A stretch of DNA of 64,000 bases, from positions 1-64,000 of the forward strand of contig CM017455.1 of the NCBI GenBank assembly GCA_007674295.1, in the 5' to 3' direction. The stretch is from Antonospora locustae (lineage: Eukaryota; Microsporidia). The number at the start of each line of letters is the position of its first letter. The stretch's first letter is position 1. Positions 8,190 through 49,439 of this stretch are shown here, piece after piece. The translations under genes and the position numbers were made by a program. A model generated the notes under the pieces. That model saw only the letters and a list, made by a program, of their open reading frames with translations. It did no database searches and was not told the origin of the DNA.

Positions 8190-8561
8190 TAGGGCTTGTA
8201 AACATTATGTCTATAATATCGTAATGAATCATGTGTATTACTGTTGCAATTTAATAACAGAAGATTAAAACATAATTTTTTTGACACTATTTGAAAGATT
8301 TGTGCTAAAATTGCTTGTCATTTATATAACTAGTCATGAATAAACTAGGAAATATATTGTTTTGATAAGGCCAACTAAAAAGCATGGAAACTAACTAGTG
8401 AATAACATGTAAAAATTAGATTAAAAAAATGATAATTAAATAAAAAAGAATTAAAGAGTTTTGTAATAAATATTCACAGTCTATAAAGTTAGAATTATCC
8501 GTTTCTTTCTTTTAGTAAACGAATATAAACCTTTGTAAAAAATTTACCCTTGGTGTGTGCT
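8190..8561. other. Divergent AT-rich spacer, telobox gene / PAB1
   Basis: About 370 bp between two divergent starts. It is AT-rich with CCC at each end (8194-8196 on the minus strand as read from the gene, and 8547-8549). I see no gene or RNA in it. Confidence 0.5.
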
Positions 8562-10055
8562 ATGGATTCAATAAGTAGCAAAGAAAATGACCAGAACGAT
8601 GTTACCACGCTGTATGTAGGAAATCTCTCTCTGAATACTACAGATGTCGACATATATAGGCTATTCACAACAATAGGAAGTATTTCATCGGTCAAACTTG
8701 TTAGGCCATCTAATGACCAATTTTACTTTAAGCCTACATGCTATGCTTATGTGTCATATCGTAAAAAAGATGTTGCGGAAGAAGCTATTCGACGACTTAA
8801 CTTCTATGAATTGCATGGGATGCAAATGAGAGTTATGATATGTGATAAAAATATTCTAAAATGTGGAGAGTGCAATGTTATTGTGAAGAATTTGCCTGAA
8901 GATATTGATGACAAAACACTTTATGATACATTTTCTTTGTTTGGAAGGGTCATCTCCTCAAAAGTTGCATGCAGAAATGGTAAGTCTCTTGGATATGGAT
9001 ATGTGCAATATGCTGATAAAAAGTCAGCTAAAAAGGCTATAAAATTAGGGACAGGTACTAAAATGAATCAGAATATTCTAGTAGTTGAAAAATATGAAAA
9101 AAAGAGTTCTAGTACAGACGATTCCTTTACAAATGTATACATCAAGAACTTTCCTTCTAACATAGAGGAAGAACAATTAAGAGGTATTTTAGAAAAGTAT
9201 GGGGAAATTCTCTCGTTCTATATGCCTAGAAAAGAAAACGGAGAACCAAAAGGGTTTGCTTTCTGTAACTTTAAGAATTTTGAGTCTGCAAAAAGCGTAG
9301 TGGATGAACTTCATAATACAAATGTTTTTGAATTGCCAGAACCATTCTACATACAAAGAGCACAGCCAAGAAGTGAAAGAGAAATCGAAATCAGAAGCAG
9401 CATAGCAAAGCTCTCTATTGAAGGAAAAAGCTTCAAAAGAAACCTGTATGTTACGAATATTCCAGGAAATTGTAATGAACAAGAAATACTGGAATTGTTT
9501 TCTAAGTATGGCCAAATCATATCAGTATCTGTAAAACCAGATTCCAGATCAAAACAGGGAACCAATTTCGCTTATGTTTGTTTTTCAAAACCAGAAGAGG
9601 CAAATTCCGCCATGGAAAATTCGGCATATATTTCAATTGATGGCAACAAACTTTCTATTTCATTGTTTAAATGTAAGAGGGAGCGTGAATTAGAAAGAGA
9701 AAATAGTAATTTTGCTTATCAGCCAGGATTTTTGCTTCAACAAAAAATGGGTGGAATTTATGATACTCGTATTGATCAAGTTTATGATATACAAGCCTAT
9801 AATGATTTGTATAAACTTGCTTATTCTCAGGCAGTCAAATATGAAGATATGTGGGACGTTATGGGTGTAAACGATTGTGCTGAATTTGCTGATAAAGTTA
9901 CACGTATAATTTTAAAAGAATACCGTGCCAAATCGCAGAGTACTATTGATTTGTCAAGTTCTTTAACAGAATATAATATCTACGATGTCGTGAGGCAATA
10001 TAACGAGAATAGTGGCTCGTCATCAGGCATGTTATCAAAGAAAAATAAAAAATGA
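8562..10055 (+). CDS. PAB1: Polyadenylate-binding protein with four RRMs
   Basis: Cytoplasmic poly(A)-binding protein that stabilises mRNA and bridges tail and cap. Four RRMs follow one another: RNP2/RNP1 pairs LYVGNL / CYAYVSY (residues about 13-85), VIVKNL / GYGYVQY (about 105-175), VYIKNF / GFAFCNF (about 190-265) and LYVTNI / NFAYVCF (about 295-365). A helical C-terminal part follows (about 410-480, around MWDVMGVNDCAEFADKV) where a PABC/MLLE domain would sit, but I do not see a clear MLLE motif. Total 497 residues, shorter than the roughly 580 of yeast. The start is the ATG at 8562, 12 nt after CCC; an upstream TTG in the same frame is not needed. Confidence 0.92.
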   Translation: MDSISSKENDQNDVTTLYVGNLSLNTTDVDIYRLFTTIGSISSVKLVRPSNDQFYFKPTCYAYVSYRKKDVAEEAIRRLNFYELHGMQMRVMICDKNILKCGECNVIVKNLPEDIDDKTLYDTFSLFGRVISSKVACRNGKSLGYGYVQYADKKSAKKAIKLGTGTKMNQNILVVEKYEKKSSSTDDSFTNVYIKNFPSNIEEEQLRGILEKYGEILSFYMPRKENGEPKGFAFCNFKNFESAKSVVDELHNTNVFELPEPFYIQRAQPRSEREIEIRSSIAKLSIEGKSFKRNLYVTNIPGNCNEQEILELFSKYGQIISVSVKPDSRSKQGTNFAYVCFSKPEEANSAMENSAYISIDGNKLSISLFKCKRERELERENSNFAYQPGFLLQQKMGGIYDTRIDQVYDIQAYNDLYKLAYSQAVKYEDMWDVMGVNDCAEFADKVTRIILKEYRAKSQSTIDLSSSLTEYNIYDVVRQYNENSGSSSGMLSKKNKK

Positions 10056-11117: not shown

Positions 11118-12035
11118 CTATATTCTTTTATTCTTGCTGCCCCATCTCAAGGATTCTTCTATAAGAAATTGTTTTCTATGTAATTTGCTATTCATTTTAA
11201 CATATCCTCTAGGCACACAAAGCCAAGGAAAAATGTTAAAAAAAGTCTTATAACCACCTTCAAGAATGTAAATTTCAGGAAATCGCAGATTTGGGTATAT
11301 ATTTTGTGTTCTATCAAAATTTCTCAATATTCTTGATAAAAATGGAGCTCTAACAGAAGAAAATTCACAATGAAATATAAGCGCAACAGAACTTTCTTTT
11401 TTGTAAAATTCTTTGATTTGTTCCACAGTGTTGATATTTATTGCATTTATTATGTGTCCACCTTCATATTCATACGAATAACGGCAATCTATAAGTATGT
11501 AAGGAAGGTTGATTTCTTTTGTCAATAAAACTTTTAAAACATGAGGTGTTATTCTACGTATACTGTCGCACCTCCCTATACCTAATGTTGGCAGTACATG
11601 TCTTTCGCCGTTGTCGAAATCACTCCAAAGACGCTGATCACAGCCTGATAAAAAAGATAATATATTCATAAAACCTTTCTTTTCACAAAAATCATTGTAA
11701 GAACCTCCACTATGCACCTTTTTACCATCGAAAATAGGACAGCCATCAACCGGCTTATTTTCTTTATTTACATAAATGTTAGTATTTGATAAGAAAAAAA
11801 ACTTTGTACTACCACAATCTTCTTTAGAAAAACTTTGTTCTTCCGAAAAATCTTTGCAAAAAAAGTTATACTCATTCTCACCATTATCGCATACAATTAA
11901 ACTTGATTCACTGTTCCTAGATAAATTAAATTGCCCTTATACTTACATTTCATTATCCACAGCTTCATTCAATGTACATATACAACAATCCTCTGCGTTT
12001 TGAAAAAATTCTATCTTATCTGGTTCAGAGGACAT
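11118..12035 (-). CDS. CDC25: Cdc25-type M-phase inducer phosphatase, spliced (two exons)
   Basis: Dual-specificity phosphatase that removes inhibitory phosphates from CDK1 at mitotic entry. Reading on the minus strand, exon 1 is 12035-11947 (89 nt) and exon 2 is 11916-11118, giving 295 residues. Exon 2 holds the rhodanese-fold catalytic domain: the LIDCRYSYEYEGGHI motif and the active-site loop HCEFSSVRAP, with the catalytic Cys at about residue 213 of the joined protein. Exon 2 alone has no ATG before its MNIL codons. Its frame is open right back to the intron acceptor, with a TAA just inside the intron, so splicing is required. Exon 1 begins at an ATG 8 nt after CCC and reads MSSEPDKIEFFQN. 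The N-terminal 100 residues are not conserved, as usual for Cdc25. Confidence 0.85.
11917..11946 (-). other. CDC25: 30-nt spliceosomal intron in CDC25
   Basis: Minus strand: donor GTAAGTATAAGG at 11946, a TTTAAT branch-like element, and acceptor TATCTAG ending at 11917. Length 30 nt. Microsporidian introns are typically a few tens of nucleotides with a GTAAGT donor and a branch point close to the 3' end, which fits. Removing it restores phase (89 nt in exon 1, so two bases are carried into the next codon) and joins two open frames that share no single start. Confidence 0.8.
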
Positions 12036-12915
12036 TAAAAGGTGGGCCAGGTCTGTTTATAAATTTTTGTTTAAGCTTTCTAAAAGAATCGAATACTGTC
12101 ATGATATTTCCAAAAAAGATTATAATAAAATCTCATTGTGTTTTTATGAAAAAACAAAATACATAATAGGCAATTTCGTGAGCTATTTCAGGGCCATTTA
12201 GTAAGTCCTAGATGGAAAGATGTAAATATAGAACTATAGAGAAAAATAGGGTTAATCTGTATAATTAAACTCTAATACTTTTATTTAAATATAATATTTT
12301 TCACGGAATAAGCTACAGTTAATATTTATTTTTGAGAAGAAAGTTACTATACTATCCGCATATCATGATTCAGTCTAGCAATGATAGCGTAGTATTGTGC
12401 TGAACTCAATTAATTTCTTCTGCTTATAATCAATTTCTATTATCAGCCTCTGTTCTTTTAAATATATACTATCTTTCATGTTAATTGCAATGAATACTTC
12501 ATTAAAGCAATTTTTTAAACATGTTTTTCAAAATTCTTTAATATTTGCATTCAATATCTAATTGATATAAATAAATAAAGTAATACTGATTCTTAATATA
12601 TGATATATACATATAAAGTATTTAAATGACCTTTTTTAATATATCCCCCCTCCTTTTACATAGAACATATATTCTGTGTAACAAAAGCATTGTTCATATA
12701 TCTAAATAATTATATGTAATAATTGTTTTAATACAAATGCTGGTTATTTTCTTTGAGATACGATTTAAATAGTATTACTTTACATAATATGAGAGTTTTT
12801 TTTTTCTTATTTCCTCAAATATTATAGAATTCATAATATAGTACTAAAAGTTGTTAAGCTACTATCCAAATAAATGCAAAAATTCGTTACTCAAAAATTT
12901 TGAATCCAATAAAAC
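12036..12915. other. AT-rich intergenic stretch, CDC25 / VMA2
   Basis: About 880 bp upstream of CDC25 and downstream of VMA2. It is very AT-rich, with a CCCCCCTCC run near 12645. I see no gene, tRNA or repeat copy. Confidence 0.5.
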
Positions 12916-23746: not shown

Positions 23747-24379
23747 CTACCACTTAAGTCTATTTTTGGCTTTTTTACGACGAATATGACTAAATTCTTC
23801 ATCGCTCTCCTCAAATTCATACTCTTTAGTTTTTTTCTGAAATTTGTCTTTGGCCTCTATTCCATATATTCCATCCTCAAGTCTTTTGTAAAGCTCTTTC
23901 TCTATATTGTGTTCAAAGTTGATTTTATTCAAAGCCTTAATAGCACCAGCTTTCTCTCTTCGAACCTGCTTCTTTTTTATAGCATGCATTTCAATGCTTC
24001 CTTGTAGGTTTTCTTTTCGTCTAAGATAAAGTGTTAATTTTGTGAACCTTTGCTTGCACTTATGAATAAGTTCATAATCCCAATATTCTAGATATTTCTC
24101 GATTTCCAACAGTGCTGTCTCGTAGTTTTTGCTAAGTTCAACTCTTTCATATGTAATTGATGGTTTATGCACTCTTTCTGGAACTTTCATGTAAAGATAC
24201 AAGGAACTATTTTCCTCTCTCACAGTTGCATATTGCGAGTTAGCAAGTGGACATGAAAACTCATTACACAATCCTGTGACATTATAAGGGTTCTTGCAGA
24301 ATGTTTCTGTTCGACTTGTCATTTTGAACGCACAAAACTTTTTGTCACCAATATTCTTCCAAATATTTTTGTCATCCAT
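23747..24379 (-). CDS. MAK16: MAK16, 60S ribosome biogenesis factor
   Basis: Nucleolar protein required for early 60S subunit assembly. The 210 residues start MDDKNIWKNIGDKKFCAFKM and keep the Cys-containing N-terminal region (FCKNPYNVTGLCNEFSCPLA) that in yeast binds an Fe-S or zinc centre, then VHKPSITYERVELSKNYETA. The acidic/basic C-terminal tail ends EEFSHIRRKKAKNRLKW. It is shorter than yeast (306). The reading frame is open upstream, but the ATG at 24379 fits the family start and has CCC 5 nt before it. That triplet lies in the 7-bp spacer to LUC7 on the other strand. Confidence 0.9.
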   Translation of the reverse strand: MDDKNIWKNIGDKKFCAFKMTSRTETFCKNPYNVTGLCNEFSCPLANSQYATVREENSSLYLYMKVPERVHKPSITYERVELSKNYETALLEIEKYLEYWDYELIHKCKQRFTKLTLYLRRKENLQGSIEMHAIKKKQVRREKAGAIKALNKINFEHNIEKELYKRLEDGIYGIEAKDKFQKKTKEYEFEESDEEFSHIRRKKAKNRLKW

Positions 24380-24386
24380 AGAGGGT
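24380..24386. promoter_or_regulatory. 7-bp divergent spacer MAK16/LUC7 with one shared GGG/CCC
   Basis: The two start codons face away from each other and only AGAGGGT separates them. GGG at 24383-24385 is 1 nt before the LUC7 ATG; read on the other strand it is CCC, 3 nt beyond the MAK16 ATG plus TCT/A. No room remains for separate core promoters or 5' UTRs outside coding sequence. Confidence 0.75.
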
Positions 24387-25094
24387 ATGGACAGAGCAAG
24401 ATGCTTATTAGATGAACTTCTTGGGCCTGATAGAGACAGACTGGTCACTGAAGAATGGAATGAAACGATATATGCGGATGTTTGCATATACATGTTAGCT
24501 GGATTTTGTCCATACCGATCATTCTACAATGCCAAATGTTATATAGGAAGATGTCCTTTTAAGAAGCATGACAGACGTTTTTTTCATCTATATGAAAAAT
24601 GCAATAAACCAGGATTAGAAGAAAAAGAACATGCTCTTCTACACCTATTGATAGAGATATATATAGATAAATGTAAGGACATATTAAAAAAGAACAATCA
24701 GTTTGAATTGTTGTATGGATCAAATGATGAACTGCTTGCTCGCATTTATATGCTAAGGATTAAAAAAGATGAACATATTGAGGAAATGGAAAAAAATCTG
24801 ATTTTAAATAATTTAAGGGAAGCTTACTTATATTATGAAAAAATAGAATATATAGAAAGTACCATAAGTTGCTACCTGAATACAAATATAAAAATTTGTG
24901 AATGCTGTGGGAAAGTGTTTGACAAAATTAGCCAGCCACCAAGATACTGGGACCTACATATAACAAGTAAGTACCATCTTTTATTTGTGGAAGTTGAACA
25001 AAAAATTGGGAATCTTCTATTTAAATATAGGTGTGAAAATGGGAGTATCTTTTCTACCGATGTTCTAAATATTGTAAATAAAAGAATGTGTTAA
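24387..25094 (+). CDS. LUC7: LUC7-like U1 snRNP protein
   Basis: U1 snRNP component that helps select 5' splice sites. 235 residues: the LUC7 N-terminus (RCLLDELLGPDRD), first CCCH zinc finger from VCIYMLAGFCPYRSF to CYIGRCPFKKH, then the helical middle, and a second C2H2-type finger CECCGK..(W)..DLHITSKYH. Its presence agrees with a working spliceosome, as does the CDC25 intron. The open frame extends 31 codons upstream inside MAK16, but the ATG at 24387 follows GGGT and fits the family start. Confidence 0.9.
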   Translation: MDRARCLLDELLGPDRDRLVTEEWNETIYADVCIYMLAGFCPYRSFYNAKCYIGRCPFKKHDRRFFHLYEKCNKPGLEEKEHALLHLLIEIYIDKCKDILKKNNQFELLYGSNDELLARIYMLRIKKDEHIEEMEKNLILNNLREAYLYYEKIEYIESTISCYLNTNIKICECCGKVFDKISQPPRYWDLHITSKYHLLFVEVEQKIGNLLFKYRCENGSIFSTDVLNIVNKRMC

Positions 25095-31299: not shown

Positions 31300-31800
31300 C
31301 TAATGTAAATTTTTTTTGCGAGGAGAATAAACAGGAGGTTTGTAATCAGGTTCATAAGGAGATAATGGTTGTTGTTTATCATCATCTTTTGGTGATTCGT
31401 AGATATCAAATTTCTGATTTGGGCTTATTTTACAGGTAGTTGGAATCAATTTAAAATCTTCTACCACTTCTAAACACCTTCCGTCTTGACTGCTTCTAAT
31501 ACTATAACTCCCATCTTCGTTCCTTAATAATGAAAATACCTGGTGATTGTGTCCATGAAACTTGGCAAATACAACATCTGTGAGTCCATTAAGAATATCT
31601 AGTGTATAAGTTAAATCGTCTCCATTCTTCAGGTAAACATTTCCAGGATCTCTATCCTTTTGAACAAAGTCAACTGGAGTTTCATCATAAGACATTATCA
31701 CATCATCATTGATGCTCGATATGTATAATGATGAGTTTTTCTTGAACATCATAAAGCAAGACACCCTACATACAACAATAAGAATAGAATATATTTGCAT
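31300..31800 (-). CDS. Secreted ricin-B-lectin-like protein
   Basis: A 166-residue protein with an N-terminal signal-peptide-like segment (MQIYSILIVVCRVSCFMM) followed by a beta-trefoil-like repeat: GSYSIRSSQDGRCLEVVED, then PTTCKISPNQKFDIY, where ricin-B repeats carry a Q-x-W (here Q-x-F) with a preceding CL...C pair. The tail is Pro/Lys-rich (SPYEPDYKPPVYSPRKKN). Microsporidia secrete ricin-B-lectin-like proteins, several thought to act in host interaction, so a similar role is possible. Only one to two trefoil repeats are seen. The start ATG has no nearby CCC. Family assignment is moderate. Confidence 0.55.
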   Translation of the reverse strand: MQIYSILIVVCRVSCFMMFKKNSSLYISSINDDVIMSYDETPVDFVQKDRDPGNVYLKNGDDLTYTLDILNGLTDVVFAKFHGHNHQVFSLLRNEDGSYSIRSSQDGRCLEVVEDFKLIPTTCKISPNQKFDIYESPKDDDKQQPLSPYEPDYKPPVYSPRKKNLH

Positions 31801-46501: not shown

Positions 46502-46601
46502 TATTTGTTTTTGTAGACTGTTTTATGCATCGTGTTTGAAATTCCAAGCAGCATGCAGGCGTCTGCGCACTCTACCGCAAAACATTTTTTGGAAAGAACC
46601 C

Positions 46602-49439
46602 ATGGAGTTTGGTGCTGTGCGGACACTCAAGAAGTCCAGGTCTGTCCTTTGCGCAGCAACATGTCTGCTTAGCGGCACGCAGTGCATAGCCATCAGTTGC
46701 GGAAAGTCTGTTGAGTTCCGCAGCCTCGACATGCACATTCTAAAGACAATGGCCTGCAATGACCTTGTTGTGCAGATGGTGCCTGTGGGCCGTCTCCACA
46801 AGTGTAGACTCCTTCTTCTGTCGCAGAACAGCGAGTACGCTCTCCTGGAGAACGGCGAGATTGTGGACACAGGCAGCCTACTCCCAAAACACGTGTACGG
46901 AGTCAGGCCGCTGCGTGCACTTGTTCTTGAGGGCTTTGTTGCGGTTCTGCTTTCAGGCAGCCGGGTTGTCCTTGCATTCTGGAAGTTCGGGCGTCTTGTA
47001 TTCCATGACAGGTTCAATTATTTTGGGTCATACCGGATTCTAGACATGGCGCCCCGCACAGACAGGGTCTTCTTCCTGATGGAGGACAACGAGGGCAAGG
47101 TCGTCTACACACAATACGGACAGCGCCAGCCGGAGAAGAACTTTGTACACCTTGAGACAGGCTCGCTTCCTGCACACACATGCAAGGTTGCCTTTTCTAG
47201 AGACAGGATGATTCTGTTTCAAAAAGACAAGATCTCTCTTCTCCAGGGCGGCAAGGTCATTCACCAGACGAACTTTGCAAACCCGGAGCTACGATCGTGG
47301 GTGGAGACGGACGACGGTGTGTTGCTGGGCATGGGAAACGGCGAGATCATAAGGCTGCGGGTTGACAACCGAATGGATGTCAGACGGGTCTACGACACTG
47401 GATTCTCTGCAGACAGCCTCCTACGGACAGAGGCAATCTACTTTGGCACGTCCCGTTTGCACGGATGGATCTGTTTCGTACTCGAGGGCGACGACATGCG
47501 AGTTCTTGCAAGACAGGATGCATGTGCAAGGCCACACTCTCTGTGTCTCCAACAAGGCCTGGAGTTTCTTGCAGGGGGGATGCTTTGCAACGTCGCATAC
47601 CAGATCACCCCGCAGGTTGTAGCAACAATCAGGTTCGACGGGCCCATCAAGCACATGTGGGTCTTTGGCGGAAAGCTTTTTGTGTCTTTTCCAGAAAAAA
47701 GCATCGTCTACGACCTTGACGAGGGCAAGATGTTGAAAGACTTCGACGAAATAAAGAACGCCAGCGAGTACAGACAGACATTCCGATTCAACACAGACAG
47801 CCTGCTGGTTGAGACAACCAGTGGAATAGCATTCAGCGTCGTAGAGTGGGAAGATATTCTCCTGTCTAGCTACTACAAGGAACATGTGCTGATATACACA
47901 GGCACAAAGCTGCAGCTTCTGAAGCACAGGAGACTTGTTCGGGAGAGACCGCAGCCCAGCGACGTGTACATGGTGCTTCTGCGCGACTTTGTTTTCGTAT
48001 CTACAGACATCTGTGTCATCTGCAACTACAACCTTGATATAATTGCAACCATAGGAACACAAAGGTTCACGTACTTCTCTATACTGGGTGACGTGATTTT
48101 CCTTGTAGACAGCTCTCGCTCGGTGTACGCTGCAAGCATACGACGCATGAAAGAGCTCTGTGTGCGTGGAGATGCTGTCTGTAGTGACATGTTCTTCAGA
48201 AGAGTACTTCCGCCAGGCCGCCACAGGTATTGCACATTTGCGAGCGAGGAGCTTGGGTACGCGCTGTTCTCAGGATACCGTCCATTTCTGGTGTTTGCTG
48301 ACCGTGAAACCACGCCGTATGAGCTGTCCGTTGCGGACGCAGTTGCCTTTGGATTTCTGAAGGGTGCCGCCGCAACAGAAAGCAGGCTTCTGATTGCAAG
48401 GGGAAGAGAAGTTCTGGTGTGCAACACCTCTCTGTCACCCGGTGCTGTATGCAGAGAGGAGAGTGTAGACAGAAACGCAAGGCTTTTAGTCAAGCTTGGG
48501 GCTACAGAGAGGGTTGTTATTGGAAGCGTGGAAAACTCGCAGCAGCTGACATCTGTGCTAGCGTGTATGGATGCAGGAATCTGCATTGGAAAGTATGTAG
48601 TTGAGAACAAGATGCTGTTATTTGTAGAGCACATTAAAAACGGGCTTGTGATCGCAGGGTTCAACTATGGAGACAGACGTTGTCTCTGTTCGGAGCTTCT
48701 TTTATTTGATATGAGACGAAGCATCAAACCTCTGCATAAAATATCGTCTCCAGGGCTTCTCTGCACAATCTCCAGGTACAGAAGCACGTTTGTTGCGTCG
48801 CACGGCTCCAGAGTGGCTGTCTACGAGGTACTCAGAACGAAGATTGTGCTGAGGGCCGAGACTACTTCCTCTGTGTTTCCGCTCAACCTGAGGTTTTCCT
48901 CTTCGGGGAAAAGTGTCTTTGTGTGCGACTTGTCAGGATCATTTTGCACATTTAGATACGATAGAAGAAAGGCACGTCTTACTAAGGAGAGCAAGGTCGC
49001 AGTGGATGGTTGTAGTGTCGCAGAGACGCTGGACAGCAGCCAGGTTTTTGTTGGCGACGCACGGGGTCATCTCTCTTTGTATCACTGCAACGGGACAGCG
49101 GCAGTGCCCTGGATGCGCTTCTACTACGGAGAACATATTGTGGATGCGCGTTCGGGGCGTCTATGTCCGGGAAGAAAGAGGCGCGTATACTTTGCCACGG
49201 AAAGTGGGGCGGTTGGGCTGGTTGCTGCCGAGAATTTCCTCACAGATAGCGAGCACACAATGCTTGCACGTCTTCAGGAGCGTGTAAGAGACGGAAGAGC
49301 CTTCCGAACACCTGCTACAGACACCATGCTTGACATCGACCTTCTTCTAGAGACAGACATCGACTCCTGGTGCAGAAAGCTTGGTTTGGACAGCACCAGC
49401 GTCAGAAACATTCTTGAAAGACTCAAGATGGTCTTCTAG
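46602..49439 (+). CDS. RSE1: SF3b130/Rse1-type DDB1-CPSF160 family protein
   Basis: Large beta-propeller protein of 945 residues from the ATG directly after CCC. It shows the repeated short blade strands of the DDB1/CPSF160/SF3b130 family. Near the end, HIVDARSGRLCPGRKRRVYF and VGLVAAENFL align with the SF3b3 segment (LxxxTLIPGGSExLVYxTLSGGIGxLVPF). The last residues (IDSWCRKLGLDSTSVRNILE then RLKMVF) match the SF3b3 ending EELDRTPxEVxKKLEDIRxRY. SF3b130 is a U2 snRNP subunit, which fits the intron and LUC7. CPSF160 or DDB1 is the alternative. Family membership is firm, the exact member less so. Confidence 0.65.
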   Translation: MEFGAVRTLKKSRSVLCAATCLLSGTQCIAISCGKSVEFRSLDMHILKTMACNDLVVQMVPVGRLHKCRLLLLSQNSEYALLENGEIVDTGSLLPKHVYGVRPLRALVLEGFVAVLLSGSRVVLAFWKFGRLVFHDRFNYFGSYRILDMAPRTDRVFFLMEDNEGKVVYTQYGQRQPEKNFVHLETGSLPAHTCKVAFSRDRMILFQKDKISLLQGGKVIHQTNFANPELRSWVETDDGVLLGMGNGEIIRLRVDNRMDVRRVYDTGFSADSLLRTEAIYFGTSRLHGWICFVLEGDDMRVLARQDACARPHSLCLQQGLEFLAGGMLCNVAYQITPQVVATIRFDGPIKHMWVFGGKLFVSFPEKSIVYDLDEGKMLKDFDEIKNASEYRQTFRFNTDSLLVETTSGIAFSVVEWEDILLSSYYKEHVLIYTGTKLQLLKHRRLVRERPQPSDVYMVLLRDFVFVSTDICVICNYNLDIIATIGTQRFTYFSILGDVIFLVDSSRSVYAASIRRMKELCVRGDAVCSDMFFRRVLPPGRHRYCTFASEELGYALFSGYRPFLVFADRETTPYELSVADAVAFGFLKGAAATESRLLIARGREVLVCNTSLSPGAVCREESVDRNARLLVKLGATERVVIGSVENSQQLTSVLACMDAGICIGKYVVENKMLLFVEHIKNGLVIAGFNYGDRRCLCSELLLFDMRRSIKPLHKISSPGLLCTISRYRSTFVASHGSRVAVYEVLRTKIVLRAETTSSVFPLNLRFSSSGKSVFVCDLSGSFCTFRYDRRKARLTKESKVAVDGCSVAETLDSSQVFVGDARGHLSLYHCNGTAAVPWMRFYYGEHIVDARSGRLCPGRKRRVYFATESGAVGLVAAENFLTDSEHTMLARLQERVRDGRAFRTPATDTMLDIDLLLETDIDSWCRKLGLDSTSVRNILERLKMVF

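Follow-up and report, generated by a model that had tools for sequence, protein, structure and literature searches.

The window analysed here is a 64,000-nucleotide (nt) stretch of DNA (positions 1 to 64,000 of contig CM017455.1) from Antonospora locustae, a microsporidian that infects grasshoppers and is the same species as Paranosema locustae. On its minus strand lies a gene of the CDC25 family, the activator of the mitotic cyclin-dependent kinase (CDK), and this gene is very probably interrupted by a 30-nt intron that has to be removed for a full-length protein to be made. Coordinates without a prefix refer to the window, while those with a C-number refer to contigs of the genome (3.17 Mb, 17 contigs).

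Exon 1 (11947..12035, minus strand; MSSEPDKIEFFQNAEDCCICTLNEAVDNE followed by AT) is 89 nt long and consists of the ATG, 28 further codons (29 full codons) and the two nucleotides AT, ending in phase 2. It is followed by a GT-AG segment of 30 nt (11917..11946, minus strand; GTAAGTATAAGGGCAATTTAATTTATCTAG) with the donor GTAAGT, a branch-like TTTAATT, and the acceptor CTAG; the 3' end reads TTTAATTTATCTAG, with TAATT 5 nt ahead of the AG. GT-AG borders with a GTAAGT-like donor and a TAAT(T) branch motif near the acceptor are among the features of U2-type microsporidian introns. Exon 2 (11118..11916, minus strand) supplies the remainder of CDC25, from the junction codon for M through NSESSL and HCEFSSVR to the stop at 11118. 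The length of the intron is divisible by three, which puts exons 1 and 2 in one frame, and its removal joins AT|G and gives a CDC25-family protein of 295 amino acids (aa). The intron carries two in-frame TAA codons; when it is retained, the junction reads ATG-TAA-GTA-TAA and translation ends after 30 residues. From 11936 onward the frame of exon 2 is open, and 89 codons pass without an in-frame ATG, the first being at 11667..11669 (minus strand).

A CCC signal (12044..12046, minus strand; context GGCCCACCTTTTAATG) stands 8 nt ahead of the ATG at 12035. Such a start signal has been described (PMC2803860), and in the window a CCC within 15 nt upstream was present at 6 of the 12 gene starts examined versus 189 of 2601 ATGs overall. 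These elements had been proposed in an earlier note on this DNA and all are present on the minus strand: the CDC25 frame without an ATG back to the acceptor, the in-frame TAA, the GTAAGT donor 30 nt away, and an exon 1 of 89 nt with its own ATG and CCC, whose phase 2 restores the frame.

We assign the spliced protein to the CDC25 family, and phosphatase activity is predicted from its motifs and domain matches. Exon 2 matched the Pfam Rhodanese family (PF00581, E 5.3e-12), a PDB search matched residues 135-279 to the CDC25B structure 1cwr (E 6.4e-31), and the HCEFSSVR at the active-site position fits HCEFSSxR, the CDC25 signature, in a rhodanese-like domain. Two rhodanese matches were found in the genome, in CDC25 and at C1:254378; the latter was rejected as a second CDC25, since by eye it resembles a ThiF/MoeB-type protein whose tail is rhodanese-like. 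One CDC25-family gene was detected in the genome.

Homology, chance and coding bias at the exon junction

The strongest evidence for the exon structure is a homologue from Tubulinosema ratisbonensis. With the spliced protein as the query, 93 proteins were found in a database clustered at 90%, and the best 13 of the 93 were aligned. One of these, the T. ratisbonensis CDC25 (P0007), begins with MSSEPDSIQF, continues later with ...ERNSESSLLI, and is contiguous across both exon starts. Exon 1 begins with MSSEPDKIEF, agreeing with P0007 at 8 of the first 10 residues, and NSESSL follows right behind the junction codon. Alignment of exon 1 with the first 25 residues of P0007 gave a score of 43. When exon 1 was shuffled 200,000 times, 2 shuffles reached this score, and scores of 16 to 21 were obtained for the remaining five frames in the 600-nt flank. 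The CTAG acceptor is favored because NSESS stands directly behind the junction. A second acceptor, AACAG, lies 6 nt downstream and was rejected, since it would keep the frame but lose the conserved NS. Read-through of an intron in P0007 itself was also considered and rejected, as by eye there is neither the VS nor the [GSRC]K expected of an open-frame GTAAGT between MSSEPD and NSESS.

For two close relatives, P0001 and P0002, the protein models start within exon 2, which is what an intron-blind gene caller would produce had it cut off exon 1 in them too. When our locus is read without splicing, the longest start-to-stop frame of CDC25 is 199 aa, from a GTG, and equals the length of the record P0002. 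A profile search gave 152 matches at E 1e-20, 120 of them listed; among the matches listed it added Anncaliia algerae, in the form of a partial record (P0094) without the N-terminus.

To express the arrangement as a frequency, the 866-nt flank was shuffled with its dinucleotides preserved. A strict GTARGT...TAATT(0-6)AG intron joining an ATG exon to the frame arose in 4 of 20,000 shuffles, in 1 of 20,000 when the CCC was also required, and in 119 of 20,000 when any AG was allowed as the acceptor. Within the window, checked on both strands, the strict motif is unique to the CDC25 site. Codon usage, scored against 13 window genes (6226 codons), gave +9.8 bits over the 29 codons of exon 1, the highest of the six frames (the other five, -27.6 to +2.1), and +16.2 bits over the 82 codons of exon 2 ahead of the internal ATG, again the highest of six (the others, -85.8 to +2.5).

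We also read in frame 30 of the 35 genome-wide rows matching GTARGT...TAATT...AG, taking the best frame for each; in some cases a pair of rows represents the two ends of a single site. Among these 30 rows, an ATG exon joined to an exon 2 of at least 200 aa, with retention breaking the frame, is found for RPS6 and CDC25 only. Among the other rows, L032 remains open on retention, L014 has a 500-aa exon-2 frame yet no ATG exon, and the ATG exons of L020 and L021 join only 48 and 57 aa, in proteins not assigned to a family. What is distinctive at the CDC25 site is the combination of motif, frame and homology, and not the motif by itself.

Splicing machinery and other candidate introns

Searches of the genome for spliceosomal components matched U2 small nuclear RNA (snRNA; 71.8 bits), U6 (63.5 bits) and a Prp8 domain (PF10596, E 5.1e-60), while U5 was not found in a genome search that had no positive control. 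A full-length U1 snRNA candidate is located at C7:91865-92001 (L041:1501-1637, plus strand of the locus; E 4.6e-10), scoring 45.2 bits, which is below the gathering score of 69.5. It has the 5' end CUACUUACCUAG, an Sm-like AUAAUUUUU and a 3' hairpin, and its fold has a z of -2.01, with 11 of 200 shuffles folding equally well. At the lax limit used (E up to 1), the U1 search matched 3 of 14 control prokaryotes, 0 of them above the cut-off. The CDC25 donor GTAAGTA pairs with the 5' end of the U1 candidate over 7 contiguous bases (+1 to +7), and the seven other candidate donors described below form 6 or 7 Watson-Crick pairs with it from +1.

LUC7, a U1 small nuclear ribonucleoprotein protein family, had been placed in the window by the earlier note and is confirmed at 24390..25016 on the plus strand (PF03194, 50.6 bits, E 3.1e-13); none of 14 control genomes matched. 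A U1C zinc finger (C13:66568-66681, L051; PF06220, E 1.4e-9) fits the U1 candidate and LUC7; the U1C search also matched 2 of 14 control prokaryotes, one above the cut-off. RSE1 had likewise been named in the window, and what is shown there is the domain family: a CPSF_A-family protein (PF03178, E 1e-16) is encoded at 46536..49439 on the plus strand and may be RSE1/SF3B3. The CPSF_A domain is common to RSE1, CPSF1, and DDB1, and neither a solved-structure match nor a named homologue separated RSE1 from CPSF1 or DDB1. As drawn, the 5' ends of LUC7 (plus strand, ATG at 24387) and of a Mak16-like open reading frame (ORF; minus strand, 23747-24493) overlap head to head at 24387-24493.

Pattern searches, frame reading and Pfam yielded further intron candidates, in a list that is incomplete because it covers GTARGT donors and the searched branch forms only, and 30 of the 35 GTARGT...TAATT...AG rows. 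These calls rest on frame and family, since the motif alone is not enriched over a reversed control. Frame and Pfam support introns in RPL39 (C2:206188-206207; 20 nt, immediately behind the ATG), RPL37 (C5:137781-137803; 23 nt) and RPL37a (C14:35841-35866; 26 nt). For RPS6 (C7:37394-37416; 23 nt, behind ATGAAG), the family is given by identity to a solved structure: the spliced protein agrees at 222 of 222 residues with chain SG0 (eS6) of PDB 6zu5, the Paranosema locustae ribosome (PMC7644102), and this identity also assigns the genome to that species. A ThiF/E1-like gene (L048) has a 21-nt candidate (GTAAGTGAATACCCTAACTAG; C6:59997-60017) within the glycine-rich motif GGCGGTG; an ATG stands 7 codons ahead of its junction, with CCCC just upstream. 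The SEC61-alpha candidate (L046, C2:165998-166030; 33 nt, behind ATGGACT) is in frame, stop-free and readable through. A last candidate (L036, C14:18393-18411; 19 nt) lies late in the gene of an unknown membrane protein without a Pfam match, which is 269 aa when spliced and meets an immediate stop on retention.

With CDC25 included, seven of the intron candidates lie in recognisable genes. The earlier note had seen in the CDC25 intron a reason for retaining the spliceosome, and this suggestion is unsupported because CDC25 is one of those seven; five of the other genes would be broken by retention, and the sixth, SEC61-alpha, can be read through. Its central claim of a spliceosomal intron in the CDC25 gene is strongly supported by the contiguity of P0007, the introns of the same type elsewhere in the genome, and the machinery genes. 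Taken together, we consider it highly likely that this 30-nt segment, close to the 5' end of CDC25, is a true U2-type spliceosomal intron of the ultrashort kind, and from sequence, frame and homology we infer that it is spliced.

Known microsporidian introns and alternative explanations

An intron in A. locustae RPS6 has already been published (PMC2803860). It shares the donor and the TAATT motif with the CDC25 intron; they differ in that the RPS6 intron is 23 nt and lies behind ATGAAG, whereas the CDC25 intron is 30 nt and lies 89 nt into the coding sequence in phase 2. The short introns of Encephalitozoon cuniculi resemble the CDC25 case in that retention gives a stop or frameshift and in that non-ribosomal genes are included; in contrast to A. 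locustae with its U1 candidate, E. cuniculi is reported to have no identified U1 snRNA (PMC3629993). For the spliced introns of Spraguea lophii, in RPS23 and PABP, the distance from the start codon is 89 and 152 nt (PMC3749934), and the CDC25 intron, which also lies well within its gene, is likewise at 89 nt; the Spraguea introns are longer and out of frame, whereas that of CDC25 has a length of 30 nt, divisible by three. An intron in PABP occurs in E. cuniculi, and one that is spliced occurs in Spraguea (PMC3749934); in our window, PABP (8550-10055) is an uninterrupted frame from its ATG, with CCC 12 nt upstream. In Vavraia culicis, four non-ribosomal genes of known function are spliced, and these non-ribosomal introns rest on motif and RNA-seq, while the CDC25 intron is predicted here from its sequence; the median splicing in V. 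culicis is 25.3% (PMC4435813). The CDC25 intron would add to the non-ribosomal microsporidian introns already known from V. culicis, E. cuniculi and Spraguea; a microsporidian CDC25 intron was not met among the papers listed by a literature search that covered titles and the starts of abstracts and did not reach the A. locustae genome publication.

Several observations weigh against an intron here. It is short and a multiple of three in length, a class often unspliced in other microsporidia: a 27-nt intron predicted in E. cuniculi is reported to remain unspliced (PMC2803860), and among 8 intron-like sequences of Spraguea lophii splicing was seen for 2, which were longer and out of frame (PMC3749934). 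The four ribosomal introns have 0, 0, 1 and 4 nt between TAATT and AG; the distance in CDC25 is 5 nt, one nt beyond the rule for Trachipleistophora hominis, in which the branch motif is 0-4 nt from the AG (PMC3486916). Genome-wide, GTARGT...TAATT...AG gave 35 matches versus 43 for the reversed pattern and thus no enrichment, GTAAGT...TTAAT...TAG gave 8 versus 5, and GTAAGT...YTAAY...TAG gave 15 versus 21; enrichment was dropped as evidence, since the real patterns are not enriched over the reversed controls. Exon 1 is recognisable in 1 of the 13 aligned homologues, P0007, the other 12 beginning later or differing at the N-terminus, and the 93 proteins from the clustered database include no 295-aa entry with the sequence of the spliced protein. 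In P0007, R stands ahead of NSESS; here this residue would be M if spliced and R (codon AGG) if unspliced, although this single residue is uninformative on splicing.

The alternative that survives best, though we regard it as improbable, is that translation starts at ATG 11669 or at a non-ATG codon and gives a short CDC25 of roughly the catalytic domain, exon 1 and the putative intron being a 5' leader or a decayed N-terminus. A downstream start giving a full protein had been named earlier as an outcome that would count against splicing, and part of it is found: the 183 aa from ATG 11669 include the whole of residues 135-279, which match the CDC25B structure. The M at this ATG is retained in P0001, and N-termini differ among the other aligned homologues; in P0002, which is 90% identical over 65% of the query, V takes its place. 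There is no CCC within 25 nt upstream of ATG 11669, and the 82 codons ahead of it show in-frame coding bias and mostly align with P0001. Exon 1, with the residues shared with T. ratisbonensis and its own ATG and CCC, also speaks against a mere leader.

Less probable still is a real former intron that is now rarely or never spliced, in a decaying gene that is gathering stops. Unspliced intron-like motifs are known in Spraguea (PMC3749934), and 30 of 37 introns in E. cuniculi are spliced at less than 50% (PMC3629993). However, the unspliced short motifs of those species can be read through, while the CDC25 intron has stops and its retention truncates the protein; coding bias and homology are kept in both exons, and the donor still pairs with U1 over its 7 bases. 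A sequencing or assembly error, with a false insertion or false stops in an intronless gene, has in its favor the contiguity of P0007 as annotated and otherwise only general possibility, and is scarcely credible given that the two stops lie among a donor, a branch motif and an acceptor that are all present and correctly ordered, an arrangement as rare by chance as the shuffles above indicate.

Predicted splicing and its consequences

If the intron is spliced as we propose, the 5' end of U1 snRNA would pair with the donor GTAAGTA, the TTTAATT next to the acceptor would act as the branch site and be bound by U2, and the first AG past the branch, in CTAG, would be taken as the acceptor. The two exons would then be united at AT|G to encode the 295-aa phosphatase. 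Because a retained intron halts translation after 30 residues, the output of full-length CDC25 would be set by the efficiency of splicing. Should A. locustae resemble E. cuniculi in this respect, the majority of CDC25 transcripts would end after 30 codons.

In E. cuniculi, splicing is reported to occur in intracellular stages alone, while spores contain long transcripts that are left unspliced (PMC3629993). By analogy, the CDC25 intron might be a life-stage gate on mitosis: in spores, translation of the CDC25 mRNA would end after 30 codons, and the CDK activator would be made only once splicing has resumed within the host cell; we think this unlikely.

Few genes of these highly reduced parasites are known to bear introns, and CDC25 would be a further, non-ribosomal one; if the intron is spliced, a mitotic activator whose gene is not ribosomal depends on the spliceosome for its production. 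An intron-blind gene caller would annotate a CDC25 lacking its N-terminus. The genome offers a small test bed, with a U1 candidate alongside LUC7 and U1C and seven short intron candidates in recognisable genes, among them a cell-cycle gene whose splicing could be followed through the life stages.

Two further observations were made. A repeat with GTAAGTCAAA...TAA(C/T)TAG is present at C1:6571-6589 (L044), C11:140188-140206 (L049) and C10:63416-63435 (L031); two copies are identical around the motif and the third is alike by eye, and they may belong to a family of repeats or to one of genes with introns. In the window, a 166-aa ORF at 31300-31800 on the minus strand matches a ricin-type beta-trefoil lectin (PF14200, 3.8e-7).
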